Shown here piece by piece: positions 1 to 34,642 of a DNA stretch of 42,028 nucleotides. A model generated the notes under the pieces. It was given only the letters and a program-made list of their open reading frames with translations. It did no database searches and was not told the origin of the DNA. The stretch covers positions 1 to 42,028 of the IMG/VR virus record IMGVR_UViG_3300029914_000060; one strand, 5' to 3'. This stretch comes from a virus. The translations under genes were made by a program, and so were the position numbers. Every line of letters begins with the position of its first letter. Position 1 is the first letter of the stretch.

Positions 1-154
1 GTTCCACAATCTGGTGCTGTTGCAACTCGATAATATCTGCCGCAACCGACGCATTATGGTCTGAAGTTTCAAGATGGTCGGTCAGTCCAGACCATTTTCC
101 ATCCTCTTCTGCAAAATTCCGTAACCAGTTAACAATATAGTCCGCTTGGTTCAT
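1..154 (-). CDS. Small phage protein, 3' end beyond the window
   Basis: This frame is open to the left edge; 51 codons are visible, beginning MNQADYIVNWLRNFAEEDG. The start is set by a strong GGAGGG ribosome site six bases before the ATG at 154, and it follows the preceding small gene without a gap. The sequence is acidic and helical-looking, and I do not recognise a family. If the molecule is circular, the frame continues for 17 codons from the right edge and stops at a TGA inside the start of the initiator gene, which would place it directly upstream of that gene in the early operon. Confidence 0.7.
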   Translation of the reverse strand, partial: MNQADYIVNWLRNFAEEDGKWSGLTDHLETSDHNASVAADIIELQQHQIVE

Positions 155-155
155 C

Positions 156-263
156 TCACCCTCCAAATATCAAGTACAACAATCCAGCTATTGCACATCG
201 CATTATCACGTCATGTGACTTGAGGTCGTTTTCGTCCCACCAGTCCTGAAATGTTTTCATCAT
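156..263 (-). CDS. Small hypothetical phage protein (35 aa)
   Basis: A 35-residue frame starting MMKTFQDWWDEND, with GGAGAGGTGA directly upstream as ribosome site. The N-terminal part is polar and tryptophan-rich, and the C-terminal third (around AIAGLLYLIF) is hydrophobic and could lie in or on the membrane. Its stop is one base from the next start, so it sits in the leftward early operon. It is the first gene read after the attC-like site at 293-440. Function unknown. Confidence 0.6.
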   Translation of the reverse strand: MMKTFQDWWDENDLKSHDVIMRCAIAGLLYLIFGG

Positions 264-292
264 TCACCTCTCCGTTGTAAGAAAAACCCCTA

Positions 293-440
293 ACCTAACG
301 TTCTAGCGGGACTGCCGCGAAGCACACGCGCATATTGTTTCACCACACGTCTTACAATATCCGCTCATCGCTCTTTCCTTTCATAGCTAGGTGTATTTGT
401 TGGTATAGACACCTGAATAGGTGTATATCAATCGTTAGGC
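293..440 (+). repeat. attC-like site A (composite)
   Basis: The left half reads CCTAAC at 294-299 followed by TTCTAGCGGGACTGCCGCG, nearly identical to the left half of site G at 35122. The right end is a perfect core GTTAGGC at 434-440, which contains the stop of the gene at 435. The middle is not complementary to the left arm and instead holds an AGGTGT/ACACCT inverted repeat, so this looks like two different sites fused. About 148 bases long, with no gene inside. Confidence 0.6.
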
Positions 441-773
441 ATCAAGTGCGGCTCTTGCAAATTTTGCAATTTTCTCAGCCTGCGGAGGGTGATATGTCCA
501 CGATTCCCCGCCCCACACTCTCATGCTGTGCGTTTGATGTTCGCACTCCACTAGGGCGGCTTTCAACCGTTTTATTTCTGCTTCGAGCGTTGTGGCCGAA
601 GCGCGGAGTTCAGATTCTATCCGTGCAAATTTATTTTGCTGCCAAGCAATAGTTTCCTTCATACCAATATGAAGTATCTTTGCACTAGCATCCCAAGCAT
701 CTTGACAACCAGTGCGCCCATGCTGCGGATTTTTCTGTACAGTTTTATACCATTCTTCAAATTCTTCACTCAT
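435..773 (-). CDS. Hypothetical coiled-coil protein in attC-bounded unit
   Basis: A 112-residue protein with a central stretch (about residues 45-75, IESELRASATTLEAEIKRLK) that reads as a coiled coil. The C-terminal part has WGGESWTYHPP. The start ATG overlaps the stop of the upstream gene (ATGA) and has GGAGA as ribosome site, so two genes share one attC-bounded unit. The stop TAA lies inside the GTTAGGC core of site A, as stops do at cassette ends. Family not recognised. Confidence 0.75.
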   Translation of the reverse strand: MSEEFEEWYKTVQKNPQHGRTGCQDAWDASAKILHIGMKETIAWQQNKFARIESELRASATTLEAEIKRLKAALVECEHQTHSMRVWGGESWTYHPPQAEKIAKFARAALDA

Positions 774-970
774 TTTCCGTTCTCCTCTTGGACCGTATTT
801 TTAGTGTCCTCTACAGCCTTAGCGTAACCATGATCGTAGCCTCGGTTATAGGCACGCTGGTAAATAATATCTATTGCGTCGGCTTTGATAAATTCCATCT
901 CCCAACCGGGACTGCATTCCTCGCAATATCCGACATATCCACCATGCGGGCATTTACTCATGTCACCCAT
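770..970 (-). CDS. Small cysteine-containing hypothetical protein (66 aa)
   Basis: I place the start at the ATG at 970 (MGDMSKCPHGGYVGYC) because GGGGG precedes it by four bases. An upstream ATG would run into the attC-like site, and a downstream ATG at codon 4 is also possible. Cysteines in CPHGGYVGYCEEC could bind a metal. The C-terminal half has a repeated Y-N-R-G-Y-D-H-G-Y pattern. It is the first gene of a two-gene attC-bounded unit and is coupled to the next gene by ATGA. Function unknown. Confidence 0.65.
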   Translation of the reverse strand: MGDMSKCPHGGYVGYCEECSPGWEMEFIKADAIDIIYQRAYNRGYDHGYAKAVEDTKNTVQEENGK

Positions 971-982
971 ATATCCCCCGTT

Positions 983-1045
983 TCCTAACCCATCATTCAA
1001 GAGGGACAGGCCAAAAGCGGCCTGCCCCTTAGCTACACGTTAGCC
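983..1045 (+). repeat. attC-like site B
   Basis: Core-like TCCTAAC (983-989), left arm TTCAAGAGGGACAGGCC, short loop, right arm GGCCTGCCCCTTAG, then core GTTAGCC (1039-1045). The left arm carries an extra C relative to the right arm (TTCAAG against CTAAG), the asymmetry known from integron attC sites. The stop codon of the minus-strand gene at 1040 is inside the GTTAGCC core. Nearly identical in its arms to sites D and I. Confidence 0.8.
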
Positions 1046-1210
1046 GTCAATATCCGCCTTCACAAATTCGACTAAAGTTTTTCCGCAATACGGGCAAAAC
1101 TTCATATCGTTTTCGTATGGCGTTCCTTCGGTTACTTCAAACAGATTCCCGCACTCGGTTTCCCATGCGCCATTATCGTCTTGCGCCCATCTGCATTTTT
1201 TCGTTTTCAT
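1040..1210 (-). CDS. Small zinc-ribbon-like protein (56 aa)
   Basis: The ATG at 1210 (MKTKKCRWAQDD) is chosen because ACGGAGAGAAC precedes it and the same leader occurs before the gene at 35161; the longer open frame upstream runs into attC-like site C. Cysteines occur as C-x(n)-C and then CPYCGK near residue 42, suggesting a small zinc-binding fold. Several other proteins in these attC-bounded units have the same kind of CxxC pair. Specific function unknown. Confidence 0.75.
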   Translation of the reverse strand: MKTKKCRWAQDDNGAWETECGNLFEVTEGTPYENDMKFCPYCGKTLVEFVKADIDG

Positions 1211-1234
1211 GTTCTCTCTCCGTAGTAAAGTGCC

Positions 1235-1293
1235 GTCTAACCCGTCAATCAACTCGGACACGCTAAAGCGTGCCGCTCAACTCTACGAATGCC
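1235..1293 (+). repeat. attC-like site C (right core decayed)
   Basis: Starts with GTCTAAC (1235-1241), then ATCAACTCGGACACG, loop TAAA, CGTGCCGCTCAACTCTAC. Sites F and G have GTTAG after CTCAACTCTAC, but here the sequence reads GAATGCC, so the recombination core is lost. The palindromic arms ACACG/CGTG remain. The stop of the minus-strand gene at 1283 falls in this end, as at other sites. Confidence 0.7.
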
Positions 1294-1441
1294 CCACCTT
1301 CGCGGCTAACTTCGCCTCTTCCATCAGCCTGTTGTGCTGACCGAATGCTTGTTCCATGTCCTCTTTGTAGTTCGCTTCAAGCTCCGCGACTTTGGCGCGC
1401 AGGGCGGTGTTCTCTTCCCATGCTTGGTGTAGTTCGTCCAT
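1283..1441 (-). CDS. Small coiled-coil protein (52 aa)
   Basis: Reads MDELHQAWEENTALRAKVAE at its start and is charged and heptad-like nearly throughout, so a short coiled coil is likely. AGGAGA lies five bases before the ATG, and the preceding membrane peptide ends in the same ATGA-rich junction. The stop TAG is in the decayed end of attC-like site C, where an intact GTTAG would have been expected. Function unknown. Confidence 0.65.
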   Translation of the reverse strand: MDELHQAWEENTALRAKVAELEANYKEDMEQAFGQHNRLMEEAKLAAKVGHS

Positions 1442-1442
1442 T

Positions 1443-1535
1443 TCATTCTCCTATCGGTGTCATCACGCACATGACAAGTATCAAACATGTCAACAGTGCA
1501 ACGGTAAAGAAAAACAGTATGTCAACGAGTTTCAT
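1443..1535 (-). CDS. Single-pass membrane peptide (30 aa)
   Basis: Thirty residues starting MKLVDILFFFTVALLTCLIL, essentially one transmembrane helix with a short polar tail. Its ATG overlaps the stop of the upstream zinc-binding gene (ATGA) and its stop overlaps the next start region, a typical tightly coupled phage arrangement. It is one of several tiny membrane peptides in this operon. Role unknown; host membrane modulation is only a guess. Confidence 0.6.
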   Translation of the reverse strand: MKLVDILFFFTVALLTCLILVMCVMTPIGE

Positions 1536-1675
1536 TCCAGTCTCTCCGCCGCACGAATCTTTCGCATCTTCGCGCAGAATTTACATTGCCTATGATGTCC
1601 ATGCTTATCATAATGGCTGTAAAACTCTGTCCCGCCGCATTTAACGCATGGAGTATTAAGTCTTGGTCGGCTCAT
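1532..1675 (-). CDS. Small zinc-finger-like protein (47 aa)
   Basis: Begins MSRPRLNTPCVKCGGTEFYS and continues to CKFCAKMRK, giving two CxxC pairs about 18 residues apart, a small treble-clef or zinc-ribbon pattern. The C-terminus is basic. AGGAGG precedes two adjacent ATGs (1678 and 1675); the second has the better spacing. It overlaps the end of the DUF1064-like gene. Probably a small nucleic-acid-binding protein, by fold type only. Confidence 0.65.
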   Translation of the reverse strand: MSRPRLNTPCVKCGGTEFYSHYDKHGHHRQCKFCAKMRKIRAAERLE

Positions 1676-1998
1676 CATGCCTCCTTTATTTGGATATTGT
1701 GGATATAGCGCATCAACTTCCGTTTCAGGATGTAAACCGGCAATTTCTTGGTCATCTCGCTTTTAACGTCAATCACTTCTTTCCTGCCATCCGAATAGGT
1801 AACAACAAAGTCGGCAACATAGGTTACGGCTCGTTCTCCGTCCTGCTTGGGGATTAGCTCATACTTCACCTGTCTGTCGATTGTAGCCACCCTCTCGCTT
1901 GGATTGGAGGCATTCTTGAGCGCCATCAGGGTATAGTAATAGCCTTCCTCTTTTCTGGAATCGAAGCCATTTGACTTTATGTTTTTGTACTTGCTCAT
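1675..1998 (-). CDS. DUF1064-like PD-(D/E)XK endonuclease
   Basis: The 107-residue protein begins MSKYKNIKSNGFDSRKEEGY and resembles the phage DUF1064 family, thought to be small PD-(D/E)XK nucleases acting on branched DNA. Visible motifs are FDSRKE near the N-terminus, YVADFVVTY and VIDVKSEMTKK, which supply D...DxK-type acidic and lysine residues. The start ATG at 1998 is fixed by ATGA overlap with the upstream gene. It lies in the recombination part of the early operon with the exonuclease and ATPase. Holliday-junction resolution is an inference from the family. Confidence 0.75.
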   Translation of the reverse strand: MSKYKNIKSNGFDSRKEEGYYYTLMALKNASNPSERVATIDRQVKYELIPKQDGERAVTYVADFVVTYSDGRKEVIDVKSEMTKKLPVYILKRKLMRYIHNIQIKEA

Positions 1999-2129
1999 TT
2001 GCTTATTCTTTTGCCTTTCAGTATATTTTTGCATTCTGCAATCGCTCGATCGCCGTCAGTCTTGACGGCGCCATACTTGCTCCGAGCCGAATAAACTGAT
2101 TTTTTATCCTTGTATCCGTGTCGGTTCAT
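1995..2129 (-). CDS. Small basic hypothetical protein (44 aa)
   Basis: Reads MNRHGYKDKKSVYSARSKYG and is lysine/arginine-rich throughout. Both ends overlap neighbours by four bases (ATGA type), which strongly supports translation despite its size. It sits directly before the DUF1064-like nuclease gene. A palindrome GCCGTCAGTCTTGACGGC lies within it. No family recognised; a nucleic-acid-associated role would fit the charge. Confidence 0.6.
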   Translation of the reverse strand: MNRHGYKDKKSVYSARSKYGAVKTDGDRAIAECKNILKGKRISK

Positions 2130-2419
2130 TTTTTCAGCATCTCCTTCATGCGTTTAATTTGAGCTGCAACTTTCGCGTCCTTTGGTATGACCACTTCCTG
2201 CTTCGTTTCATCGAATTTTTCCAAGTAATCGGCGCATTTCGTTACCTGATTCTTTCCCGACTTGTATTCTTCATCAGTGCCGAAACTTACGCGCTTCTTC
2301 CTGCAACACCACTTTACAAATTGAGCTGGCGGCTTCGTTACATAGCAAGCTCGATGCAGGCACGAAGGACATATCATGCCGGAATCCAGTAGTACCAATA
2401 TTTTCCCTTGCGCTCGCAC
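2126..2419 (-). CDS. Small cysteine-rich protein, start uncertain
   Basis: The frame opens with GTG at 2419, with AAAAGG just before it; an internal ATG at 2377 (MICPSCLHRACYVTK) is the alternative start. A CxxC pair, a later Cys and a Cys-Cys doublet (WCCRKKR) suggest a zinc-binding fold, followed by a lysine-rich helical tail ending MKEMLKK. It overlaps the next gene by four bases. The GTG fills what would otherwise be the only real gap here, so I prefer it. Function unknown. Confidence 0.6.
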   Translation of the reverse strand: MRAQGKILVLLDSGMICPSCLHRACYVTKPPAQFVKWCCRKKRVSFGTDEEYKSGKNQVTKCADYLEKFDETKQEVVIPKDAKVAAQIKRMKEMLKK

Positions 2420-2427
2420 TCGACCTT

Positions 2428-2604
2428 TTAAGATGTAATCCTAACATTATGCTGAGGGTGCAGATCGGCCTGATAGTTGGGCGACAATACCCAGTTGTCA
2501 CCTAAATATTTCAGCGCCGCGTGGCGTTTTTCCTCGTAAGCATCTTCTGATTCGAGGCGTTCTTCCATCGCGTCTAACTCATCTTCCAAAATAAAGAATT
2601 TCAT
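2428..2604 (-). CDS. Small acidic hypothetical protein (58 aa)
   Basis: Begins MKFFILEDELDAMEERLESE, strongly acidic and helical in its first half; the second half contains YLGDNWVLSPNYQ. The ATG overlaps the previous stop (ATGA) and GGAGG lies eight bases upstream. Acidic small early proteins in phages sometimes mimic DNA, but nothing here shows that directly. Function unknown. Confidence 0.6.
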   Translation of the reverse strand: MKFFILEDELDAMEERLESEDAYEEKRHAALKYLGDNWVLSPNYQADLHPQHNVRITS

Positions 2605-2861
2605 ATTGGTAGCCTCCATTCAACTTCTTCCATTTTGTCAATCGCAAGCGAAAGATATGACGCAACATTGTCCAGGTCGCAAGCTGCCTCGGTGCAATAG
2701 ATCGCTGCTCGGTAAAGACAACCTGCTGGCGTATCGATAAGGTCTCCTTGCACTGTTTCGCTCAGAATCTCGCACCTGTCGCGCATGGCTTCGGACAATT
2801 TCCGCATGTCCTCCGCGCTGGCGTATCGAATATCAGCCAGAATTAAAGGTAAATTTTTCAT
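2601..2861 (-). CDS. Hypothetical early protein (86 aa)
   Basis: An 86-residue, probably all-helical protein starting MKNLPLILADIRYASAEDMR, with three cysteines in the central part (GCLYRAAIYCTEAAC) that do not form an obvious metal site. Start and stop both overlap neighbours by four bases. No signal peptide or membrane helix. I do not recognise the family. Confidence 0.65.
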   Translation of the reverse strand: MKNLPLILADIRYASAEDMRKLSEAMRDRCEILSETVQGDLIDTPAGCLYRAAIYCTEAACDLDNVASYLSLAIDKMEEVEWRLPI

Positions 2862-3091
2862 AGTCCCAATTCCTTTTTTATGTTGCAGAATGCGCCAATA
2901 CGGATATGACGATGTGAGTCGAAAGCAATCACTTTTTCAAAATATTCGCCGTTCGCTCTCAGATTTTTAACTATCGTAACGCGGTCTTTGTTGCCTAAAA
3001 AGTCACGGTAGCAATTCACCACGCGCCAACGCATCGCACTACCACAAAGCGGCGTTGCATTCGGCACGGCTATAGCCCATATCCTGAACAT
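2858..3091 (-). CDS. Hypothetical early protein (77 aa)
   Basis: The start at 3091 (MFRIWAIAVPNATP) is preferred because CAGG lies six bases upstream and the longer frame overlaps a better-supported membrane peptide. The body contains RWRVVNCYRDFLGNKDRVTI and HRHIRIGAFCNIKKE, a mixed alpha/beta pattern without a catalytic signature I recognise. It couples to the next gene by ATGA. Confidence 0.6.
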   Translation of the reverse strand: MFRIWAIAVPNATPLCGSAMRWRVVNCYRDFLGNKDRVTIVKNLRANGEYFEKVIAFDSHRHIRIGAFCNIKKELGL

Positions 3092-3093
3092 GC

Positions 3094-3180
3094 TTAACCT
3101 GCCATCGAATAAATAATCATCAAATCGACAACGGCATAAAAAGCCGTGACCATTAGTGCGGCTACAATTGCATCTTTCAT
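3094..3180 (-). CDS. Single-pass membrane peptide (28 aa)
   Basis: Reads MKDAIVAALMVTAFYAVVDL and is almost entirely one hydrophobic helix. The ATG overlaps the stop of the ATPase gene (ATGA) and GAGAGGTGAG is a good ribosome site. It is one of a group of tiny membrane peptides in this operon (others at 1443 and 5079). Function unknown. Confidence 0.6.
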   Translation of the reverse strand: MKDAIVAALMVTAFYAVVDLMIIYSMAG

Positions 3181-4133
3181 TTTGTCTCACCTCTCAGCCA
3201 TTCGGTTGCAGCCTGATATTTGTCAGCCGGAATTTTAGCAATCGAACCGTAACGCTTAATCAGGCTATCTTTTTTTGCAGGATATGCGGCTACCAGATCA
3301 CCGATAAAAATTGCTTGGTCGGCGGTTATAAATTCGTCCAGTCCTTCCTTGCTCTCTTGCACGGTCGGCATTGCTATAGTGACATTTTTTTCTGTCCCTC
3401 CCTTCGCCCATTGAGCAATCAATTTTCCGCTCTCCTCGTTTACTTGGCGATCGAGCGGGAATAACGCCTTGTGCTGCTCTTGCAGCTTGATGGGCTGCGG
3501 GATGCCTGGACGGTCGGCGGTAAATAAAAGGCTGGTCGTTGCCTCGAAGGGCAGGCTCTTGTCGCACACCGGGATCCAGCCATCCAACCCGGTTAGAGAT
3601 TGCTTGGCATGGATAACAATTTTTCCGTTCTCGCGTACCATCTCCACCTTTTGCTCGGCCCGAAAGCATAGAATCAGGTGCGCCCTTACCTGCAATAACG
3701 ATTGCACCATTTTTTTATGTGCCATTTTCGGCTTAATCCAAGCGGCCATCTTGCAGGATTCGCGTTTTTTCCAGTCATCGCCGGCCATACGGTCAAGTTC
3801 GTGTTCCTGCATGTCCAATACGCCACCATCACCGGCCCATACATGCGAAACGCTATCTACCACGATGACAGGATAGCCGGCCTTGTCTGCGGCGTGTATC
3901 GCCTCGGTATAGGCTTCGGGGCTGAATGGTTCGCGCAGGTCGCCGCAGTCGAAATTAAACTGGTCGGCATAGTGTCTGGCGCGTCCGTTCTCGGTATCTA
4001 TCACCACAAAGGGCTTACCTTCTGACATGCCTGAAGCAAGTCTCATGGCGGTCATGGTCTTGCCGCTTCCCGTCCCGCCTATTAGGTTTATCCATAAGGA
4101 TATGTTCTCTCTTGATGCCTTTTTGAACATCAT
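3177..4133 (-). CDS. RecA-fold AAA ATPase, Sak4-like recombination protein
   Basis: The 318-residue protein has a clear P-loop GGTGSGKT at residues 19-26 and a Walker B strand VIVVDS ending near residue 94, placed as in the phage RecA-like AAA ATPases (Sak4 group). These proteins are linked to single-strand annealing and recombination, usually near an exonuclease or SSB. The neighbour at 4215 is a RecE-like exonuclease, which fits a two-component recombination pair. The start has AAAGGAGA upstream; two ATGs are adjacent. The C-terminal part (QVNEESGKLIAQWAKG onwards) is more variable. ATPase fold is certain, Sak4 role is inferred. Confidence 0.85.
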   Translation of the reverse strand: MMFKKASRENISLWINLIGGTGSGKTMTAMRLASGMSEGKPFVVIDTENGRARHYADQFNFDCGDLREPFSPEAYTEAIHAADKAGYPVIVVDSVSHVWAGDGGVLDMQEHELDRMAGDDWKKRESCKMAAWIKPKMAHKKMVQSLLQVRAHLILCFRAEQKVEMVRENGKIVIHAKQSLTGLDGWIPVCDKSLPFEATTSLLFTADRPGIPQPIKLQEQHKALFPLDRQVNEESGKLIAQWAKGGTEKNVTIAMPTVQESKEGLDEFITADQAIFIGDLVAAYPAKKDSLIKRYGSIAKIPADKYQAATEWLRGETK

Positions 4134-4137
4134 TTTA

Positions 4138-4218
4138 TTATTCTCCTTTGTTGTTATCGTCTATGTTATTTATCAAATTAAATAAAAATAGTTTTGTTTC
4201 TTCGTTAACTGTACTCAT
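4138..4218 (-). CDS. Tiny hypothetical protein (26 aa)
   Basis: Reads MSTVNEETKLFLFNLINNID, overlapping the stop of the exonuclease gene by ATGA and ending just before the ATPase start. GGGAGGG precedes the ATG. It may be a real peptide or simply a coupling frame that carries ribosomes through to the ATPase gene. No family recognised. Confidence 0.4.
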   Translation of the reverse strand: MSTVNEETKLFLFNLINNIDDNNKGE

Positions 4219-5066
4219 GTTCTTACCCTCCCAAACAAGAAAGCCTCGCGGTCGAAGCCGTGGGTTACTTCTGCCGTTTCCTCGGCGGTCGCCATCTCCC
4301 ACGCTGGCGGGTCGAGTTCAATAATTTCCTGCGAATAGCATGGAAATATGTTTGATTCGATACAGGCTCCCCATATCTGGAGGGCGCGTTCAATCTTCAC
4401 GTCCGCGATTGCCCTATACGCTCCGGTTAGCTCAACGAAATAGACCGGATAGGGCGGCAAAGTCTCGCACACGGCGAAAATAAAGCGGCATTCCTGCTCC
4501 AAGTCCATCCGAACAGCGCGCCTATACCATTCGGACTGCACATCATAGCCATTTGACGAAAGGGATTTAATCCAGGCGCTTTGTGTGAGTTCGGTAAATT
4601 TCAGATCGACAATCAAGCTATTGTCGTTGTTAAGCCAGTCCGGTCTCGCTTTGCATTTTAAGGCGCCCTCATTCCAGAATAGGGAAGTCTCGGCCTGTCC
4701 GTCCGTGTCAAGGTGAATGCTTAGCGCCGATTCAATCTGAAGCCGTGCCGTTGCTGCGATGGCGTAAAGCTCGGCGGCCTTGTCAGCTATTACCGGTATT
4801 CTGCCGGCTTGCCGGGCGTCGTCCCTTGCCTGCTGTGCTGCCTTCGTGCGGAAGTCGGGCGCGTCGATTAGTTGGATTATGTCATCCTCTCCAAGCGTCA
4901 GAGCGTGCCGGATGGTGCCGCGCTCCTGCTGCGGCGTCGGGTCGTCGTGCGGGTTGATCTGCTGCATACGAGCATGAGCGGCGCTCTTTTGTAAAAGCGT
5001 CTTAATGGTCGATGCGCTTAATGCGTCGATGCGGTGATACTCGGCGGCTGGGATAATCTTTTTCAT
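4215..5066 (-). CDS. PD-(D/E)XK exonuclease, RecE C-terminal / DUF3799 type
   Basis: A 283-residue protein with the hallmarks of the phage exodeoxyribonuclease VIII-like family: RGTIRHALTLGE (residues 49-60, His54), then AETSLFW with Glu126, CKARPDWL with Asp143 and IVDLKFT with Asp154 and Lys156, giving the nuclease core. Such enzymes resect double-stranded DNA from ends to leave a 3' strand for annealing. The next gene is the RecA-fold ATPase, so the two probably act together in replication-linked recombination. Length matches the isolated nuclease domain of RecE. The ribosome site before ATG 5066 is weak, but no better start is visible. Confidence 0.85.
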   Translation of the reverse strand: MKKIIPAAEYHRIDALSASTIKTLLQKSAAHARMQQINPHDDPTPQQERGTIRHALTLGEDDIIQLIDAPDFRTKAAQQARDDARQAGRIPVIADKAAELYAIAATARLQIESALSIHLDTDGQAETSLFWNEGALKCKARPDWLNNDNSLIVDLKFTELTQSAWIKSLSSNGYDVQSEWYRRAVRMDLEQECRFIFAVCETLPPYPVYFVELTGAYRAIADVKIERALQIWGACIESNIFPCYSQEIIELDPPAWEMATAEETAEVTHGFDREAFLFGRVRT

Positions 5067-5078
5067 ATTAGCAATTAC

Positions 5079-5219
5079 TTATAAATAAGGGATTAGAATA
5101 AGGCCGACAGCGGCGCCGGCCAGAATTCCAATGATGCAAAAGGTAATTATAGTAAAGCCTGCTGGCGTGGTGGTTGCGGCTTTGGGCGGTTCATCTGCTG
5201 AATGGCTGCGCGGGCGCAT
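5079..5219 (-). CDS. Overlapping membrane peptide (46 aa)
   Basis: An out-of-frame ORF starting MRPRSHSADEPPKAATTTPA inside the gene at 5147 and ending just before the exonuclease. Its last 25 residues (GFTIITFCIIGILAGAAVGL and on) form a very convincing transmembrane helix, which is unlikely by chance in a shadow frame. The ribosome site is poor, so translation may depend on coupling. Function unknown. Confidence 0.45.
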   Translation of the reverse strand: MRPRSHSADEPPKAATTTPAGFTIITFCIIGILAGAAVGLILIPYL

Positions 5220-5344
5220 TGCCTGATTTTAATAAGCGCGCCGGAATACTCAAGGGCGCGGCTCTCTACCATAGGGCTGCTTGTGTCGAGTGCGTCCGTG
5301 TGTTCGATAATGCTCTCAAAATAATCCTGTATTGATTGGCTCAT
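5147..5344 (-). CDS. Hypothetical early protein (65 aa)
   Basis: Starts MSQSIQDYFESIIEHTDALD; the first 50 residues look helical and the last 15 are proline- and glutamine-rich. AAAGGG lies seven bases before the ATG. The C-terminal codons overlap an alternative frame encoding a membrane helix. No family recognised. Confidence 0.6.
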   Translation of the reverse strand: MSQSIQDYFESIIEHTDALDTSSPMVESRALEYSGALIKIRQCARAAIQQMNRPKPQPPRQQALL

Positions 5345-5420
5345 AATCCTACCCTTTCATTTTTTCCGAAATAAAATACTTTATCCTCTGGCTGCACTCT
5401 GGCTGTTCGGCTGCTGGTTT

Positions 5421-5645
5421 TTATCCATAGCGAGCCGTTTGTGGATTGCTGTTCTCCCCGTCTACCAGGTCTTTCAGTCTGGACAAAACAGCGTCGATAA
5501 ATTCCGGTGAGCCGTCAATCCTGATTCCGCAAGCGCCGTAAGAGCTTCCCTTGCTCTTGTACGGTATCGCGTCCATTACTGGCAAGATCGGCAAGTTAGC
5601 CGTTAAATTCGCCCATTGGTTCAGTGTGTCTTCTTTTGTTGCCAT
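5421..5645 (-). CDS. First gene of the leftward early operon (74 aa)
   Basis: A 74-residue protein starting MATKEDTLNQWANLTANLPI, with ACGGAGATTATC as ribosome site. It is the first gene after the leftward promoter at 5705-5732 and so is probably made early. The sequence has GACGIRIDGSPEFIDAVLSR, a mixed alpha/beta pattern. Family not recognised; the 5' leader of about 50 bases has no strong hairpin. The 75 bases between this gene and 5344 hold only very short frames that I do not call. Confidence 0.65.
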   Translation of the reverse strand: MATKEDTLNQWANLTANLPILPVMDAIPYKSKGSSYGACGIRIDGSPEFIDAVLSRLKDLVDGENSNPQTARYG

Positions 5646-5704
5646 GATAATCTCCGTTCTAAGTTAAGAGTTAAGTAATTGTTATTGCTGGTGCTACAGT
5701 TAGG

Positions 5705-5732
5705 ATTCTACACTTCCTTATACATACGTCAA
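5705..5732 (-). promoter_or_regulatory. Leftward sigma-70-type early promoter
   Basis: On the minus strand TTGACG (5732-5727), a 16-base spacer and TAGAAT (5710-5705) match the bacterial consensus at five of six positions in each box. It points into the early operon that starts with the gene ending at 5421. Confidence 0.7.
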
Positions 5733-5761
5733 GTACAAAAAATACAAATAGTTAGCTATAA

Positions 5762-5820
5762 TTATTCACAAATAATACACATATCCACAGGACTGTAGAG
5801 TTAAAAATGAGTTATCCACA
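5762..5820. other. Candidate replication origin: three DnaA-box-like sites
   Basis: TTATTCACA (5762-5770), ATATCCACA (5781-5789) and TTATCCACA (5812-5820) lie in one orientation in an AT-rich intergenic stretch between divergent transcription units. The third is the exact consensus 9-mer for bacterial DnaA and the other two differ by one base. The phage has its own DnaB and initiator-like gene, so whether host DnaA binds here is an inference. Confidence 0.5.
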
Positions 5821-5929
5821 GGGGCAACAAAAAGCGTGCCAGAAAAAAAGACTTGACAAATAAAAAAAAGAGGCGCAACATTCGCAGCAAGTCGGGTGGC
5901 TCCTGGCTTACATTTACACACGAAGCGCG

Positions 5930-6037
5930 AACCCTTTAGAAGAGGGCTGTTTGTTTTTCTGCGGTGTTTTATGCCTTCGTGTGGCATCTGTCAGAAAATC
6001 GGCCAGCCAGCCCGGCCTTCTCCTAAAGGGTTTTTTT
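5930..6037 (+). promoter_or_regulatory. Attenuator-like structured leader RNA
   Basis: AACCCTTTAG (5930-5939) pairs perfectly with CTAAAGGGTT (6023-6032), which runs into seven T residues ending directly before the ATG at 6038. The same 5' segment can instead form a local hairpin CCCTTT-AGA-AGAGGG (5932-5946), so the two folds exclude each other. An inner hairpin around TGCCTTCGTGTGGCA is also visible. This is the layout of a terminator/antiterminator switch, or of a small RNA closed by its end stem. A weak TTGACA at 5853-5858 could drive it. Confidence 0.5.
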
Positions 6038-6277
6038 ATGTCTGAATTAATGACTACTGACGAGCAACAAAAGCTCGTCAATTCAAGAAAAGCCATAGAG
6101 TTACGCAATAGGCTCATCCAGATTATTCAAAGCAAAAAATCCACAAAAGAGGAAGTAAAGGAAGCTAGAACATTTTTGTTTGCATTGTCACCAAAACATT
6201 ATTACGAGCTTCAAAATATCGAGAAGAACAAGAAATTACATAAAGCTAATTTGAACCGTAAAGCATTAAATCATTAA
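6038..6277 (+). CDS. Hypothetical small protein after the leader RNA (79 aa)
   Basis: Begins MSELMTTDEQQKLVNSRKAI and is lysine-rich and helical to its end. The start is the ATG immediately after the T tract; AAAGGG before the tract is the only ribosome-site candidate and becomes paired in the terminator fold, which would silence translation. The longer frame upstream runs through the RNA structure and is less likely. A hairpin with GCAATCGC at its tip follows the stop. Function unknown. Confidence 0.6.
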   Translation: MSELMTTDEQQKLVNSRKAIELRNRLIQIIQSKKSTKEEVKEARTFLFALSPKHYYELQNIEKNKKLHKANLNRKALNH

Positions 6278-6278
6278 T

Positions 6279-6298
6279 CGAGTCGCAATCGCGGCTCG
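6279..6298 (+). terminator. Hairpin after small gene
   Basis: CGAGTCGC-AATC-GCGGCTCG forms an eight-pair stem with one T-G wobble two bases after the stop codon. No T tract follows, so it may be an RNA-stabilising hairpin or a weak terminator. Confidence 0.4.
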
Positions 6299-7199
6299 TC
6301 ACCGCAAACCAGATCATAAGGATAGTTTGACGGCTCTAGGGTAAGGCCTCTCGACCCAGTGCAGTGGCAATTCCAGTTTAATTGACTGTGACCGCATCCA
6401 CTATAAAAACCGCAATCCACATGGGCAAGGCAATGTTTCGCCTACAAAATTCACGTTAAGATGTAGGAAAAAATCATACCACGGCGCACCCTCCCGACCG
6501 TATAAAGGGGGGTTCGTACCACGCTGGACAGCGCCGAAGGGTTGCGGTAGCATACCCTGACTAGATTCTTCTCACTCAGCTAAGTCTCGCTAAGTTCTCC
6601 ACTTGCTGCACTAGCGACTTCTAAAGTAAACACTCAGCTTCCAAGTTCCTTTAAAACCGATGCAGTATTCGGGCCGTCCCCGTTCTCGCTCGTTCTTACT
6701 TAGGCGTAACACCTCTCTAGCAGACTAATACCCTCGCGTACCTCTTATTCTTGCTAGTCAGTGCCTAATTAATACACGAAAGATGCTCTTTCATGTGAGT
6801 GATGGACTACGTCCCCCTTATAGCTCCCCTCTCATCCATAAAGAAATGCTTATGCATGTATTCGTAGTATATCTTTGACTGGTCTGTTCGGTGTGGCGGT
6901 CTGCCGGGTGTTCCTGCTTGCGTTGAGTGTTGCGATCCGCTGTTGTGAGCGTTCTACGGAGTGCTGATGCAGATGGGTTTGAGGTTGGTAATTGAGGTGC
7001 GCCCTCATGTACTTTCCCAGAAAAAAAAATGGTTTTACCTGTTGTCTCTATACTGGGCGTGTGGTTTGATGGTTTTGGTATTATTAAAATAGGTATTTGA
7101 CGTGGCTTTTGTGTTCAGAGCGTTAGCGTCCCTGTGACTTTTGAGTGCTGGTGCAAGAGCGCGTAGCGTGCCTTTGTGGTTTGTAAAGATGTAAAGATA
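6299..7199. other. Roughly 900-base stretch without genes, strand-skewed
   Basis: No credible frame on either strand. Up to about 6850 the plus strand is rich in C and T (for example the run around TTCTTCTCACTCAGC); from about 6870 it is rich in G and T. Short hairpins are visible, such as GAAAGA-TGC-TCTTTC (6778-6792) and CCCTCC...GGGGGG near 6490-6512. The skew flip could mark an origin, a packaging start or a structured untranslated transcript. No tRNA or intron core was recognised. Confidence 0.6.
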
Positions 7200-7229
7200 T
7201 TGACAAGTTTTATATTATTGGTTTAATAT
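7200..7229 (+). promoter_or_regulatory. Rightward sigma-70-type promoter
   Basis: TTGACA at 7200-7205, then an AT-rich spacer and TTAATA/TAATAT at 7223-7229. It is the best promoter match ahead of the rightward genes and lies 37 bases before the ATG at 7266. A ten-codon frame at 7232-7264 (MKKSNEKKEK) follows directly and could be a leader. Confidence 0.6.
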
Positions 7230-7265
7230 AGATGAAGAAGTCAAACGAGAAGAAGGAGAAGTGAG

Positions 7266-7388
7266 ATGAAGAAGGCTGAGAAGCGGGAAACTTTCATGGA
7301 CGACCAGAGGAAGGTTGACACGAAGAAGGAGGTGTCCAAGGGAAAGGCTCCGGTATTGAAGGTTGACAAGAAGTTGGCAAAGAAATAG
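7266..7388 (+). CDS. Small lysine-rich protein (40 aa)
   Basis: Starts MKKAEKRETFMDDQRKVDTK and is very basic, about one residue in three being lysine. GAAGGAGAAG precedes the ATG. It is the first substantial gene after the promoter at 7200. Small basic peptides like this could bind RNA or DNA; no family recognised. Confidence 0.5.
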   Translation: MKKAEKRETFMDDQRKVDTKKEVSKGKAPVLKVDKKLAKK

Positions 7389-7410
7389 TTAATTTTACGA
7401 GGGGGCTGAG

Positions 7411-7608
7411 ATGAGCGAACGGATTTATGTTGTAACTGTTGGTGGTGTTGAGCGTTTGATAAGTGCAAAATCCAAGGCTGAGGCGTTGTCGTATGCTGTA
7501 AAGACGACGATGCAATTTGCCTTGGCGACGCAAAAGGACTTGGTGGATTTGATAACCGATGGGATTATGGTTGAGAGTGTTACGGATGTTGAGGAAGAGA
7601 GTGAGTGA
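7411..7608 (+). CDS. Hypothetical small protein (65 aa)
   Basis: Starts MSERIYVVTVGGVERLISAK and has a beta-alpha pattern ending in an acidic tail (TDVEEESE). The ribosome region ACGAGGGGGCTGA is shared almost exactly with the gene at 29452. Its end overlaps the GTG start of the winged-helix gene by eight bases. Function unknown. Confidence 0.65.
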   Translation: MSERIYVVTVGGVERLISAKSKAEALSYAVKTTMQFALATQKDLVDLITDGIMVESVTDVEEESE

Positions 7609-7894
7609 TTTATGTTTGTGGCGCGACCCGCTGAAGCCTGTTGTGCATCGAATCATCTGGTTTTTGCTTGATATTGGAGCGCCTGGCAAGGAGTTGAAGC
7701 ACGGTTGGCAGATGCAGGCTGCGGCACAGCTTGGTATGACGCGGATTACCCTGCACCGTCATGTAATGCGCATGGTGGATCAGGGGATACTTTTTGATGG
7801 TGGGAAGAAGGGCGAGGTTGTTCTAAACACCGATATATTCAGGAAGCGTGCCAAGCCGGAACTAATCAGGATGGACAAGAGGGGGCCAAGGTAA
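7601..7894 (+). CDS. Winged-helix DNA-binding protein
   Basis: The start GTG at 7601 is chosen because GAGG lies six bases before it; the longer frame from 7559 has no ribosome site. The 97-residue protein has a helix-turn-helix around AAAQLGMTRITLHRHVMRMVDQG (residues about 39-61) followed by a short wing with GEVVLNTDIF, a MarR/Rep-like winged helix. It stands just upstream of the TnpB element and the packaging genes, so it may be a late-gene regulator; a role as small terminase cannot be excluded by position alone. Confidence 0.65.
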   Translation: MSDLCLWRDPLKPVVHRIIWFLLDIGAPGKELKHGWQMQAAAQLGMTRITLHRHVMRMVDQGILFDGGKKGEVVLNTDIFRKRAKPELIRMDKRGPR

Positions 7895-7904
7895 CTGAAT
7901 GCTG

Positions 7905-7933
7905 TTGACATGTAGTTATCTATGTGCTTAAAT
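7905..7933 (+). promoter_or_regulatory. Promoter of the TnpB element
   Basis: A perfect TTGACA (7905-7910), a 17-base spacer and TTAAAT (7928-7933), ten bases before the ATG of the small gene at 7943. It suggests that the element has its own promoter. Confidence 0.55.
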
Positions 7934-7942
7934 GTGTGCCTC

Positions 7943-8077
7943 ATGAAGAGAACGAACTATTATTTTCCAGATCAGATGCTAAAGCGCGTCAAGCAGGCTT
8001 GCGCGATCATTGGAATCCCGATGAGCGAATTCATCCGCCGTGCAGTAGAAGCCGCACTAAAGGAGGAAAAGCTGTGA
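7943..8077 (+). CDS. Ribbon-helix-helix protein coupled to TnpB (44 aa)
   Basis: Reads MKRTNYYFPDQMLKRVKQAC and continues IIGIPMSEFIRRAVEAALKE, the strand-helix-helix pattern of a minimal CopG/Arc-type DNA-binding protein. It lies ahead of the TnpB-like gene, whose GTG start overlaps its stop (GTGA), so the two are translationally coupled. It may repress the promoter at 7905. A frame containing these bases in phase with TnpB is a shadow and should not be taken as an N-terminal extension of TnpB. Confidence 0.7.
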   Translation: MKRTNYYFPDQMLKRVKQACAIIGIPMSEFIRRAVEAALKEEKL

Positions 8078-9129
8078 TCCAGTGCCAGCTAAAACTTAGA
8101 TTGAGCGCAACCAAAGAAGCGCAGCTAAATGACTGGATATGGTCTTTGACTGCGGTTCACAACTTCGCCGTTCGCAAGATAGAGCTTGACGCAAAGGATG
8201 GTATTTTCTACACCGGCATGGGCTTCCATAATATCCTCGCATATCACGGGAAGAAGATCGGCATACCGAGCCATACGGTACAAGGAATGCTGGAGCAGGT
8301 TCACACAGCATGGTCACGGTGCTTCAAGAAGATAGGCGGCAAGCCGAAGCTCAAAGGCATGCGCAACAAGTTAAATTCAATACCGTTCCCTGACCCCATC
8401 AAGTCGCTGGAAGGGAACCACGTCAAGCTGCCCGGCGTCGGGTTATTGCGTTTTCACAAGCAGGATATACCGGAAGGTAAGATCAAGTGCGGGCGCATTG
8501 TCAAGCGCGCTTCCGGCTGGTATCTGTGCCTGTTCATTGATGCGTATCGCAAGCCGATTGCCAGAACATGCTCAGGTATGATCGGGATAGACCCCGGATT
8601 CAAGGATTTGATCGTAACCTCGGACGGCGAGAAAGTGCCGCACCCGAAAGAGTTGCAATCCTCGCTAGAGCGTCTAGGACAGGCGCAGCGCGGCATCAAC
8701 CGCAAGCTGGTAGCAAGGCTGCACGAGCGCATTAAAAACCAGCGCAAAGACCGCAATCACAAGCTGTCGTTGCGTCTGGTGCAAGAGAATACCCTGATCG
8801 TTTTCTCGAAGGACAACATCAGAGGGGTAGCAAAGAAGTTTGGGAAGAGCGTAGCCAGCAGTGGGCATGCTCAACTTAGGTCAATGTTGAGTTACAAGAG
8901 CATTCAAAGCGGTACTCAATATATCGAAGTCAATTCCCGCAATTCCACAAAGACATGCTCTTCGTGTGGCTCATTGTCTGGGCCAAGCGGTTTGAGCATG
9001 CTTTCAGTGAGGCAATGGGAGTGTAGCTGTGGAGCCAACCACGACAGAGATAAAAATGCTGCCGTAAACACCCTTTTGCTGGGCATGGAATGTGCCTCGA
9101 ACGATGGAGGATTGCGCCATGCCGCATAA
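8074..9129 (+). CDS. tnpB: TnpB-like RNA-guided nuclease homologue, altered RuvC-II
   Basis: The 351-residue protein starts at GTG 8074 (AAGGAGG upstream, GTGA overlap). It has the TnpB order: N-terminal helical and wedge regions, RuvC-I GMIGIDPGFKDL with Asp173, RuvC-II, a zinc finger (Cys295, Cys298, Cys317, Cys319) and RuvC-III NHDRDKNAA. In active TnpB proteins RuvC-II reads like VxxEDLNxKG, whereas here it is LIVFSKDNIRGV, so the catalytic Glu is Ser245, with Asp247 two residues later. The second zinc pair is C-x-C instead of C-x2-C. The protein may be inactive as a nuclease and act as an RNA-guided binder, or it may use a relocated acidic residue such as Glu285. Which is true cannot be decided from sequence alone. 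Confidence 0.85.
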   Translation: MIQCQLKLRLSATKEAQLNDWIWSLTAVHNFAVRKIELDAKDGIFYTGMGFHNILAYHGKKIGIPSHTVQGMLEQVHTAWSRCFKKIGGKPKLKGMRNKLNSIPFPDPIKSLEGNHVKLPGVGLLRFHKQDIPEGKIKCGRIVKRASGWYLCLFIDAYRKPIARTCSGMIGIDPGFKDLIVTSDGEKVPHPKELQSSLERLGQAQRGINRKLVARLHERIKNQRKDRNHKLSLRLVQENTLIVFSKDNIRGVAKKFGKSVASSGHAQLRSMLSYKSIQSGTQYIEVNSRNSTKTCSSCGSLSGPSGLSMLSVRQWECSCGANHDRDKNAAVNTLLLGMECASNDGGLRHAA

Positions 9130-9170
9130 CTCCGACCGGAATCCCCACGCCTTCAGGCGTGAGGAGGTTC
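9020..9170 (+). ncRNA. Putative guide (omega/re) RNA scaffold of the TnpB element
   Basis: TnpB guide RNAs come from the 3' end of the gene and the right end of the element. Here the end carries a hairpin TCC-C-CACGCC-TTCA-GGCGTG-A-GGA (9142-9165), preceded by CGACCGGAA, the same arrangement as in known scaffolds. The 5' boundary is a guess. Bases after about 9166 would be the guide, and these belong to the gene at 9119. Confidence 0.55.
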
Positions 9171-9343
9171 AGAAGTCGTTTGCTGATTACTGGATAGAGC
9201 ATTTTGATACGCTGGACGAGGAAGCGAAGCCTGTTTTCCTGCTGAAACTGAAGCGCGAATGGCGCGAAGAGGGAAATCACGACGCGATGGACGCGTTCTT
9301 GCAGTTGTGCAGCAAGTGGATGAGCGAACCAATACCAAAGTGA
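9119..9343 (+). CDS. Small gene before the large terminase, 5' end altered by the TnpB element
   Basis: The 74-residue frame starts at ATG 9119 inside the TnpB coding end; its first 16 or so codons are the element's palindrome, while the rest (DYWIEHFDTLDEEAKPVFLL onwards) looks like an ordinary acidic, helical phage protein. It ends four bases into the terminase start (GTGA). Its position suggests a small packaging protein, but no small-terminase helix-turn-helix is visible. The original N-terminus may have been replaced when the element arrived. Confidence 0.55.
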   Translation: MPHNSDRNPHAFRREEVQKSFADYWIEHFDTLDEEAKPVFLLKLKREWREEGNHDAMDAFLQLCSKWMSEPIPK

Positions 9344-11130
9344 GCGGTTTCAATCTCAAGAACTTCTGGAAATTCGCGGCCTCCCTCAAGGTTGACACGA
9401 AGGAATCCGACCAGATAACGCTGGCACAGGAAAACCTCCTCGGCACGCAAATCTACATGATAGAGGAGATTGCGAAGGGGATAGAGGAGGGTGTTCACCA
9501 CTTCGTAATACTAAAGGGCAGGCAGCTTGGCATCACCACTATCTCAATCGCGCTCGACCTTTACTGGGCGATGAAGCACAAGGGCATGTCGGGTTCTCTC
9601 GTGACGCACACAGAAGAAGCAAGGGAGATGTTCCGCGCCACCATCACGATGTACATGGAGTCGCTCCCCGACGAATGGCGCGTACCGATCGTCACCCACA
9701 ACCGAACTCAACTGGTTCTTAAAAACCGAAGCCGATTTTCATATCAGGTTGCGGGAACCCGAAAAAACAGTAAACTTGGGAAAGGGCAAGCACTCACTTT
9801 TCTTCATGCGACCGAGGTTTCGGAGTTTGGAGACGAGGAGGGCATGGCATCACTGGAAGCCTCTCTTGCAGAAAACAATCCGAACCGTCTGTTCATCTAC
9901 GAGTCAACGGCCGAGGGGATGAACCATTATGTTGATATGTGGGAAAATGCCAAGTCAGCGACCACGCAGCGTGCGATATTCATAGGTTGGTGGCGGCATC
10001 AGGGATACCGCAAGAAGAAGGGCACGCAGGAATACCGCGTTTACTGGGATGGCAAACTCACGCACGAGGAGCGCAAGTGGGTGACGCAGGTAAAGAAGTT
10101 GTACAATTTCGACGTGGACGACGAACAGATTGCATGGTGGAGATGGAACCTTGCCGAAAAGACGCGTGACGAACAGCTTATGTATCAAAACTTCCCGCCG
10201 ACGGAAGATTATGCGTTCGTCATGTCTGGTACTAATTTTTTTAATCCATCGCGCATTACTGACGAGTACAAGGTTGCTATCAAGATTCCGGTGAGCAATT
10301 TCCGCTTCGTCCTGCGGCAGAACTTCGAGGACACGGAACTGACCGGCTGCAACGAAAAGATGGCTAATTTGAAAATATGGGACTTTCCGCAACACGGGGG
10401 TCATTATGTTATCGGAGCAGACCCCGCGTATGGTTCTTCAGAATGGGCCGACCGATTCTGCGCATCAGTGTTCCGTTGTTATAGCGACGGCATGGAACAG
10501 GTGGCAGAGTTCAATACGGCAGATTGTTCTCCTTATCAGTTTGCCTGGGTTGTTTGCTATCTTGCAGGAGCGTACATGATGAACGGCGCGTCCACCTGTA
10601 TGCTGAACCTTGAGATTAACGGGCCGGGACAGGCGGTGCTGACCGAGATGAACCAGCTAAAGCGCGTCGCGGCCAATGCGAAGGGCGGGAATTCGCGCGG
10701 GATACTCGACGTGGTGGCCAACATACAGAACTTCATGTACAAGCGGCAGGACTCGTTCGGGGCACCAAGCGCGTACCACACACTTTCCAATACGCGCGAG
10801 AAAGAGCGTATGTTCAACTGCTTCAAGGACGGCTTCGAGCGCGGTATGATACGCGTGAAATCGCCCGGCTGCATCGACGAGATGAAAAATATCATCAGGG
10901 AAGAGGGCTATCTGGGCGCGCCCGGCAGAGGCAAGGACGATCGCATCGTGGCGGCAGGACTGGCGACCGTGACGTGGATTGATTATGTGAGAATACGCAT
11001 GGTGCAAATGCAACTGAGCCGCGAAAACTGCATGAAAAGGGATGCAGAGGGCAAGAGCGGGGGCGGGACGGAAAGAACTGTCGAACGGTACCTCCAGCAG
11101 ATAGGAGTGGGTCAGGGGATGCCGCGATGA
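9340..11130 (+). CDS. terL: Terminase large subunit
   Basis: The packaging motor ATPase/nuclease that pumps DNA into proheads. From the GTG at 9340 (GTGA overlap with the previous stop) the protein is 596 residues; an ATG at 9259 in the same frame is an alternative but lacks a ribosome site. A P-loop variant LKGRQLGITT lies at about residues 58-67. C-terminal nuclease signatures are IGADPAYGSS, LEINGPG and GKDDR, giving the three acidic residues of the RNase H-like fold. Full length for the family. Portal and capsid genes follow in normal order. Confidence 0.92.
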   Translation: MSGFNLKNFWKFAASLKVDTKESDQITLAQENLLGTQIYMIEEIAKGIEEGVHHFVILKGRQLGITTISIALDLYWAMKHKGMSGSLVTHTEEAREMFRATITMYMESLPDEWRVPIVTHNRTQLVLKNRSRFSYQVAGTRKNSKLGKGQALTFLHATEVSEFGDEEGMASLEASLAENNPNRLFIYESTAEGMNHYVDMWENAKSATTQRAIFIGWWRHQGYRKKKGTQEYRVYWDGKLTHEERKWVTQVKKLYNFDVDDEQIAWWRWNLAEKTRDEQLMYQNFPPTEDYAFVMSGTNFFNPSRITDEYKVAIKIPVSNFRFVLRQNFEDTELTGCNEKMANLKIWDFPQHGGHYVIGADPAYGSSEWADRFCASVFRCYSDGMEQVAEFNTADCSPYQFAWVVCYLAGAYMMNGASTCMLNLEINGPGQAVLTEMNQLKRVAANAKGGNSRGILDVVANIQNFMYKRQDSFGAPSAYHTLSNTREKERMFNCFKDGFERGMIRVKSPGCIDEMKNIIREEGYLGAPGRGKDDRIVAAGLATVTWIDYVRIRMVQMQLSRENCMKRDAEGKSGGGTERTVERYLQQIGVGQGMPR

Positions 11131-11645
11131 TTTGCATAAGCCCCGGCAAGGGCGGCAGGTACGGCCCGCACAAGGTACGCGTCATTCTGGAAAAGGACGG
11201 CTCAACACAAAGCTGGGAAAGTGAGTACCCAATATACTCGCAAGACGAGCTACGACGCCGTATAGCCAGATACCGAGGCACCCCGTCGAGTAATGGAATA
11301 CCGAAAAAGCCGAGTACGGTTCTGGCGATACTGGACATAACCTATCTGGCCAACATAGATCGATGCAATAAGAATTTTTGGGATTTCATGAAGAACAAGC
11401 ACACTTTCGGTGAAAAGGTGTCGAGGCGTCTTAGCCGGGCGGTGTACCTGTGTGATTCGGGCAGGGTGCGCAAATTCCAGTGGAAGTGGTATGCGATTTA
11501 CGACAAGCCTTGGAAACCGGCGGTGAAGGAGATGCGCGTGAATGTTAATTTTTTGAGCGGCGTGACGATAGTCAAGCCTGTTCCTGAAGCAAAATTTGAA
11601 ACGATGCCCACATTTGCCGAACTGTTCGGACGGAGGAATAAATAA
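11127..11645 (+). CDS. Hypothetical protein between terminase and portal (172 aa)
   Basis: Starts MICISPGKGGRYGPHKVRVI, overlapping the terminase stop by ATGA. It has alternating strands and helices, including FQWKWYAIYDKPWKPAVKE, and no membrane segment. I do not recognise it. Its position suggests a packaging or head-assembly accessory protein. Confidence 0.75.
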   Translation: MICISPGKGGRYGPHKVRVILEKDGSTQSWESEYPIYSQDELRRRIARYRGTPSSNGIPKKPSTVLAILDITYLANIDRCNKNFWDFMKNKHTFGEKVSRRLSRAVYLCDSGRVRKFQWKWYAIYDKPWKPAVKEMRVNVNFLSGVTIVKPVPEAKFETMPTFAELFGRRNK

Positions 11646-12079
11646 TGCCCGCTTTAAACGATTACATCTGTGCCGTTCACGGCAAGTTCGATTCCTTCAC
11701 CGGAAAGTGTCCGCACGGCTGCGGTAAGGAGTTGGTGCAAAAAATCTTATCCGCTCCAGCCCTGCTTTCGGGGCGCACAAGGAGCATTGACAAGACGGTG
11801 CGCGACTTGGCCAGCGATGCCGGTGTTACAAACCTGAACAACAGGGGCGGGCAGGCGGCTTTCCAGTACGATACCAATATGGACAAGGCGGCAGACGACA
11901 TGCGCCGGCAGATGATGAGCGGGCAGACGTATGCGGGCGCACTCAACGGAGGGGAAAACGCCATAGCGGGCACACTTGCAGAGAATCATCTTCAGGGGGA
12001 CAATGCCTTCGCTCAAGTCAAGGACTTGATGACGCAACCAAAACCGATCGTGCATGGCGCATGGGACGGAAAGGATTAA
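11645..12079 (+). CDS. Zinc-ribbon-containing head-region protein (144 aa)
   Basis: The first 30 residues (YICAVHGKFDSFTGKCPHGC) supply a Cys/His set that probably binds zinc. The rest is alanine- and glycine-rich with amphipathic stretches (MDKAADDMRRQMMSG). It shares a base with the previous stop and is followed closely by the portal gene. Proteins of this form occur beside portals in related phages as far as I recall; the function is not known to me. Confidence 0.7.
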   Translation: MPALNDYICAVHGKFDSFTGKCPHGCGKELVQKILSAPALLSGRTRSIDKTVRDLASDAGVTNLNNRGGQAAFQYDTNMDKAADDMRRQMMSGQTYAGALNGGENAIAGTLAENHLQGDNAFAQVKDLMTQPKPIVHGAWDGKD

Positions 12080-29215: not shown

Positions 29216-29228
29216 GAAAGGGCTGAAA

Positions 29229-29432
29229 GTGGCGACTAAACCAAAAACCCAAGTGGTGAACGCGGAACTGGAAAAGTTCCTGACAAAACTAATGAAGGAA
29301 GCCAATAACAGTAACGATATGTCACTGACGGATAAGATGCGGATAGTGGATAGAGTCCTTAAACTCGAAGCCATGAAAGCAAAAATTACTGATGATAATA
29401 TGGGCAGCGGTTTTCATAGTGACGAAGATTGA
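29229..29432 (+). CDS. Small acidic hypothetical protein (67 aa), GTG start
   Basis: Starts at GTG 29229 with AAGAAAGGGCTGAAA upstream; reads (M)ATKPKTQVVNAELEKFLTK, helical and charged, ending GSGFHSDED. It lies between the ejection genes and a membrane protein. No family recognised. Confidence 0.6.
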   Translation: MATKPKTQVVNAELEKFLTKLMKEANNSNDMSLTDKMRIVDRVLKLEAMKAKITDDNMGSGFHSDED

Positions 29433-29451
29433 TTAAAACGAGGGGGCTGAA

Positions 29452-33265: not shown

Positions 33266-33303
33266 CAATCCCCTACACAGAGAGGGCAAGGAGGGAACAA
33301 ATA

Positions 33304-33429
33304 ATGAACGGAACACCAGAAAGGCGAGCGCGAATACTGGGTGATGAAGACATCGAGGCCATACGAACACAGTTTCAATCCCCGCAACATAGCGGAGAAG
33401 GGAATAAGAATGAGTCCGGACAACTTTGA
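33304..33429 (+). CDS. Small hypothetical protein in lysis region (41 aa)
   Basis: Starts MNGTPERRARILGDEDIEAI, after AAGGAGGGAACAAATA, an ideal ribosome site. It overlaps the next gene by 20 bases. Polar and helical, without a membrane segment. Possibly a regulator of lysis by translational coupling; no family recognised. Confidence 0.55.
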   Translation: MNGTPERRARILGDEDIEAIRTQFQSPQHSGEGNKNESGQL

Positions 33430-34076: not shown

Positions 34077-34077
34077 T

Positions 34078-34640: not shown

Positions 34641-34642
34641 TC

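Follow-up and report, generated by a model that had tools for sequence, protein, structure and literature searches.

The left end of a virus contig from IMG/VR (42,028 bp, G000, classed as linear; this whole stretch of DNA is called the window below) carries hairpin-like sequences between small minus-strand genes, and related sequences lie near its right end. The question raised by this locus is whether these sequences are integron recombination sites (attC) and, if so, what an array of gene cassettes is doing in a phage genome.

Organization of the window and its two attC clusters

In the window, minus-strand early genes occupy 1-5.6 kb and 35.1-42 kb, and plus-strand late genes lie between them. 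Both clusters of sites fall within the minus-strand early operons, as the sequence-only reading of this DNA had placed them. The encoded proteins include a large terminase, a major head protein, an exonuclease VIII-like protein (4215-5066), and an AAA_24 protein (3177-4133, minus strand). At the right end, upstream of the second cluster, the minus strand encodes a DNA methyltransferase (38430-39593), a DnaB-like replicative helicase (39639-40994), and a replication-initiation-like protein (40991-42028) that is truncated at its N-terminus by the contig end. The last protein also has a MUG113/T5orf172 (GIY-YIG-like) domain, and a tandem repeat at 41350-41415 encodes a (KD)n stretch in it. A TnpB/OrfB_IS605-like gene (PF07282, PF01385) is located at 7924-9129, where the late genes begin. 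An Rfam search of the window yielded no match.

The left cluster contains three sites on the plus strand, to which the letters A, B, and C of the sequence-only reading were mapped here, and the minus-strand genes that it had listed at 435, 770, 1040, and 1283 are all present. Site A (283-440) is a degenerate long attC-like site with a good R''/L'' left half (283-323), an R' box GTTAGGC (434-440), and a mismatched L' arm; its loop holds a minus-strand mini-ORF (within 283-360) of 18-21 aa (MSGYCKTCGETICACASRQSR) with a stop codon inside the attC arm. The adjacent cassette gene (435-773, minus strand, 112 aa), for which a family search gave no match, has its stop codon within the R' box of this site. 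It overlaps by 4 bp a cassette gene for a Cys-rich protein (770-1000, minus strand; 76 aa if it starts at TTG, 67 aa if at an internal ATG). Site B (981-1054) is intact and is followed by a cassette gene for a zinc-ribbon-like small protein (phrog_10312; 1040-1225, minus strand). Site C (1226-1287), at the junction of the array and the backbone, has intact arms and has lost its R' core, with CGAATG instead of CGTTAG; its end at 1287 provides the stop codon of a small resident gene (1283-1440, minus strand).

The right cluster spans 35.1-38.3 kb, and its sites are also on the plus strand. Site D (35115-35191) shares 97% identity over 64 bp with an attC site of the Gallionella contig L136, and site E (35460-35535) shares 98% over 55 bp with a site of the phage contig L086. 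Sites F (35762-35858) and G (36177-36250) are followed by site H (36538-36613), with a degenerate left end, and site I (37198-37267), which has lost its R'' box (TTATC). The weak attC-like site J (38021-38084) is matched solely by a window-trained model that contains this site. A half attC at 38177-38250 has its R' box at 38195-38201, exactly at which it is fused to a gene remnant, and the array ends with site L (38250-38305), with a degenerate R''. A cassette gene for a Lar-like restriction alleviation protein (PF14354; 37458-37841, minus strand) belongs to this cluster; in the set of phage contigs described below, the arrays contain or adjoin this Lar-like gene and several methyltransferase genes.

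Pairwise identities show that every site of the left cluster has its closest relative in the window in the right cluster. The left half of site A shares 97% identity over 33 bp with the site at 35.12 kb, the left arm and loop of site B are identical at 47 of 47 positions to 36182-36228 and 97% identical over 39 bp to the site at 37.2 kb, and the best match of site C in the window is the site at 35.47 kb. The proposed interleaving of the two clusters is thus supported.

Two contigs from another sample (3300029953) belong to the same phage. Contig L087 corresponds to window positions 30395-37831 at 99.95% identity, and contig L003 is identical to the window over bases 1-11801 (100%) and extends 1,590 bp beyond base 1. 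This extension holds an intact 120-aa gene, which base 1 of the window cuts through. Adjoining the left cluster, it also holds (at 12402-12711 of L003) a 310-bp copy, 99.4% identical, of the minus-strand segment 37712-38021, indicating that material was recently copied between the clusters. Because base 1 interrupts the L003 gene and the match of the replication-initiation-like protein begins only at profile position 33, the ends of the window are assembly breaks, not a natural circle junction. Going by L003, that version of the genome has no less than about 1.6 kb separating base 42028 from base 1. Literal circular closure was considered and rejected: the last 7 bases of the window match the L003 continuation, after which L003 diverges and carries the intact gene. 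A circular layout with both clusters in one operon, as suggested earlier, still is plausible, but the ends do not join directly and at least about 1.6 kb is missing. A synteny search for the piece between base 42028 and base 1 found no bridging contig. In the related contig L004, a single array is flanked directly by the AAA operon on one side and by the late genes on the other, which is compatible with either two insertions or one split array.

Identity of the sites

A covariance model built from eight window sites had no consensus pairs; hence profile HMMs and an arm-permutation test were used. A profile trained solely on the sites at 35-38.4 kb and run against the whole window recovered 985-1045 (49.7 bits, E 8e-15), 289-323 (20.5 bits, E 1e-5), and 1236-1287 (15 bits, E 6e-4). 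Outside both clusters this profile produced no score above 3.3 bits in the 42 kb; within the right cluster, the 23-bp half site 38180-38202 scored 7.4. A second profile, built from 212 attC sites of bacterial contigs with a common exact attC core, recovered 981-1052 (E 1.6e-16), 1227-1287 (E 2.4e-6), and 283-323 (E 4.8e-6). Thus, the model search proposed earlier, run here as profile searches of the whole window, finds all three left-end sites with either profile (E 1.6e-16 to 6e-4). The matches across clusters and to the bacterial profile contradict the view, named earlier as one that would undo the claim, that these are unrelated hairpins without conserved cores.

The arms of the sites also match each other. 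For 74 phage sites, the mean duplex energy of a site's own arms is -18.35 kcal/mol vs. -12.84 kcal/mol (sd 0.34) for permuted arms; bacterial sites behave in the same way, and individual window sites vary. Imperfect inverted L''/L' boxes form a hairpin with matching arms. Both R boxes, R'' (RYYYAAC) and R' (GTTRRRY), are present at 981-1054 and in sites D, E, and F; the boxes or arms are partial at 1226-1287 (R' lost) and at 283-440, H, I, and L (R'' or L' lost). Given the recovery by both profiles and the better matching of the arms than after permutation, the left-cluster sites are, on sequence grounds, attC sites and not chance hairpins. Having two or more attC sites within a few kilobases but no integrase, the window carries a CALIN; it lacks the intI gene of an integron (no PF00589 match in the window).

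Some attC sites of other phages are long and contain a gene-strand ribosome-binding site and start codon in the loop (L007:11552-11688, 12171-12300, and 12509-12649; L089:4263-4402; L092:1514-1648; L098:1443-1567; L100:757-895). In these sites, the left arm of attC encodes a recurring N-terminus of the type M...EGQSRLNVGL.

Polarity of cassette genes

In standard integrons, a cassette gene runs in the direction of its attC site. In the window, all attC sites are on the plus strand and the genes are on the minus strand, and all eight resolved intervals are antisense. The earlier reading recognized the attC sites correctly and overlooked this polarity, which is the unusual part.

For comparison, phage contigs were gathered irrespective of polarity, as relatives of the window AAA protein (those with arrays being L004, L007, L008, and L010) and by scanning two attC patterns over IMG/VR; short peptide patterns of DnaB run against IMG/VR gave no relatives. 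For each inter-attC interval, the coding strand was called from a hexamer model and the ribosome-binding site. Among 75 phage intervals, 64 (from 14 contigs including the window) are antisense, none is sense, and 11 were left uncalled. The same procedure applied to bacterial contigs with the same attC type gave 150 sense, 10 antisense, and 19 uncalled intervals, and 17 further independent bacterial cassettes gave 11, 2, and 4, respectively. A cruder longest-ORF rule is noisier and yields the same contrast (33 antisense and 12 sense in phages vs. 6 antisense and 129 sense in bacteria). The aadA1 cassette on R100, a checked example of standard polarity, scores sense, and for all 103 phage sites overlapping with previous calls, the bacterial-only profile assigns the same polarity. 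In the GenBank phage genome MW202573 (cited in Qi et al., 2023), for which the gene annotation comes from a third party, the early genes also run against the attC sites.

Clear phages are among the contigs, as marked by a major head protein (L085), terminase (L098, L097), baseplate (L090), and connector proteins (L094, L007). Comparisons of terminases and helicases indicate that several contigs are not close relatives of the window. Clusters of attC in phages are already known (Qi et al., 2023); of the systematic polarity of genes against attC, no description was found in the open-licence papers searched.

Bacterial relatives of the sites

One exact attC core was found in 72 stretches of bacterial genome contigs, mostly from Gallionellaceae and Nitrosomonadales, and 33 of the 158 genomes from the family to which L136 belongs contain a similar core; a second attC pattern had no match in Gallionellaceae. 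Site D is also 96-97% identical to two attC sites in L153, which follow genes on the attC strand resembling, by eye, the HicB and RelE families. Judging only from the attC type, a host in the Gallionellaceae/Nitrosomonadales group is likely.

A tblastn search of the phage cassette proteins against the 72 bacterial contigs found no convincing homologues. In a small sample, phage-family proteins are matched by 8 of 10 reversed bacterial cassettes vs. 5 of 20 forward ones, a contrast that weakens when the threshold is tightened (p 0.007 at E 0.01 and 0.11 at E 0.001). The rare antisense cassettes of bacteria (L105, L111, L134, L137, L153, L155, L156, L166, L168) encode short proteins, mostly of phage families.

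Cassette exchange and the recombinase

Only three gene-bearing joins were found to lie exactly at R'. L004 and L086 share a cassette, made up of the gene MPSRIYVICDSYESGYGHGL... and its attC, at 85.5% identity over 269 bp, and the two sequences part precisely after CTCTACGTT, at the R' crossover. In the window, the gene remnant (38196-38250) is homologous to a cassette gene of L085 from the R' box onward, the preceding attC arms being different, and the same pattern is observed for L003 and L093. A tally of homology ends near R' was dropped as evidence, because the similarity of attC sites itself ends at R'.

In L086 and L095, the break lies inside the attC loop, as expected from homologous recombination, and hence homologous exchange also occurs. 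The two sites concerned (L086:5143-5219 and L095:4734-4820) are homologous, with mutually inverted inner loop stems and different right arms.

A tyrosine recombinase (PF00589) was not found in 19 of the 20 attC-bearing phage contigs, the window among them, so an integrase would have to be supplied by the host. The sole tyrosine recombinase of the 20 contigs (L085, G007; 28982-29491) is a phage integrase or IntI.

Possible explanations

The favoured explanation, which we consider probable on comparative evidence, is that the left cluster is a part of a phage-borne, integrase-less array of attC cassettes with reversed genes that is worked by the IntI of the host. Here, attC sites of the Gallionellaceae/Nitrosomonadales type separate small accessory genes of the early operons at two places. 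The host-supplied IntI would recombine folded attC bottom strands on replicating phage DNA, adding, dropping, and shuffling small genes of counter-defence and host interaction between phages and between both arrays; IntI1 has been shown to act on attC sites of some other lytic phages, including phages with CALINs (Qi et al., 2023; PMC9892861). Since the operon is transcribed against the attC polarity, expression would be limited to cassettes whose genes are reversed, and the phage pool would remain distinct from the bacterial one. With the genes reversed, the attC bottom strand is on the coding strand of the early operon, and if the replication fork moves with the operon, the recombinogenic strand would be on the lagging-strand template. 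Counting against the action of IntI, one R box or arm is missing from about half of the window sites, many of which may therefore be dead.

The latter observation also fits a rather unlikely explanation, in which the attC sites are relics that serve as short homology linkers, and genes are exchanged between phages through homologous recombination at these hairpins by the phage exonuclease VIII-like protein and its AAA partner, without an integron integrase. The window does encode the exonuclease, R'' or R' has been lost at several of its sites, the exchange between L086 and L095 occurred inside an attC, and attC similarity between phages often exceeds that of flanking DNA. On the other hand, mere linkers would not account for three cassette joins exactly at R', nor for arms that match within each site, which means that hairpins were inherited whole, and most sites in other phages keep full R boxes. 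Much less probable is that the hairpins are kept for a role in the early transcript, such as translation start, mRNA processing, or stability, recombination being history. Long loops with a ribosome-binding site and start codon, where the arm encodes the N-terminus (MNNQTEVNDKKHVEGQSRLNVGL...; L007, L089, L092, L098, L100), and genes ending inside the R' side (...PNVELTGSL, stop) could be read in this way. Most sites, however, are short and have no start codon; an automated count found start codons in 8 of 122 phage vs. 6 of 259 bacterial sites, many of them doubtful, and the conserved R boxes are relevant to recombination, not to RNA folding. Finally, we give hardly any credence to an ordinary bacterial integron fragment carried by chance, the polarity contrast being a misreading of attC orientation or of genes. 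Single calls are indeed prone to error, since attC ends are nearly palindromic and genes are short, as reflected by the 11 uncalled phage intervals; but an identical profile and gene scoring gave sense in bacteria and antisense in phages, and the bacterial-only profile, aadA1, and the independently annotated MW202573 all contradict a misreading.

Relation to known systems and implications

Mosaic phages exchange small host-interaction genes with one another at conserved boundaries (boundary sequences and morons). The arrays with reversed genes described here differ in that the boundaries are complete integron recombination sites. They resemble the phage CALINs TJE1, PH101, P12002L, and MW202573 (Qi et al., 2023) in having clusters of attC without an integrase, with small genes and methyltransferases between the sites. 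Reversed polarity is not described for those CALINs in that paper, where TJE1 and PH101 are reported with typical structure; the present analysis found it in MW202573. Other differences are two clusters per genome, attC of the Gallionellaceae type, and longer arrays (to about 14 sites, in L089). The sedentary chromosomal integrons of Gallionellaceae/Nitrosomonadales have the same attC sequences (up to 97% identity over 64 bp), but there the genes run with attC. The median gene is 142 aa in these bacterial integrons vs. 85 aa in the phages, and the median spacing is 524 bp vs. 272 bp. The inverted superintegron of Vibrio cholerae (PMC11023631) provides a laboratory case in which attC bottom strands lie on the lagging-strand template and excision is far more frequent; there, the whole array was inverted relative to replication, while the relative polarity of genes and attC was kept.

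The reversed polarity suggests a separate viral pool of swappable gene cassettes. A tentative, if possible, generalization is that phages of integron-bearing bacteria keep their own reversed attC cassette pool and borrow the host integrase, the reversal both separating the pools and raising recombinogenicity; reversed cassettes of hosts would then be phage-derived, and phage operons may form new cassettes. Behind a host promoter, a captured phage cassette would be silent, and a host cassette taken up by a phage would likewise go unread; this would separate the two pools, which agrees with the tblastn result. Such a scheme bears on two open questions, the origin of integron cassettes and their passage between phages and bacteria. 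If it is true, host integrases shuffle viral counter-defence genes, and the orientation of a gene against its attC would be a simple sequence mark for tracing phage-derived cassettes in bacterial integrons.
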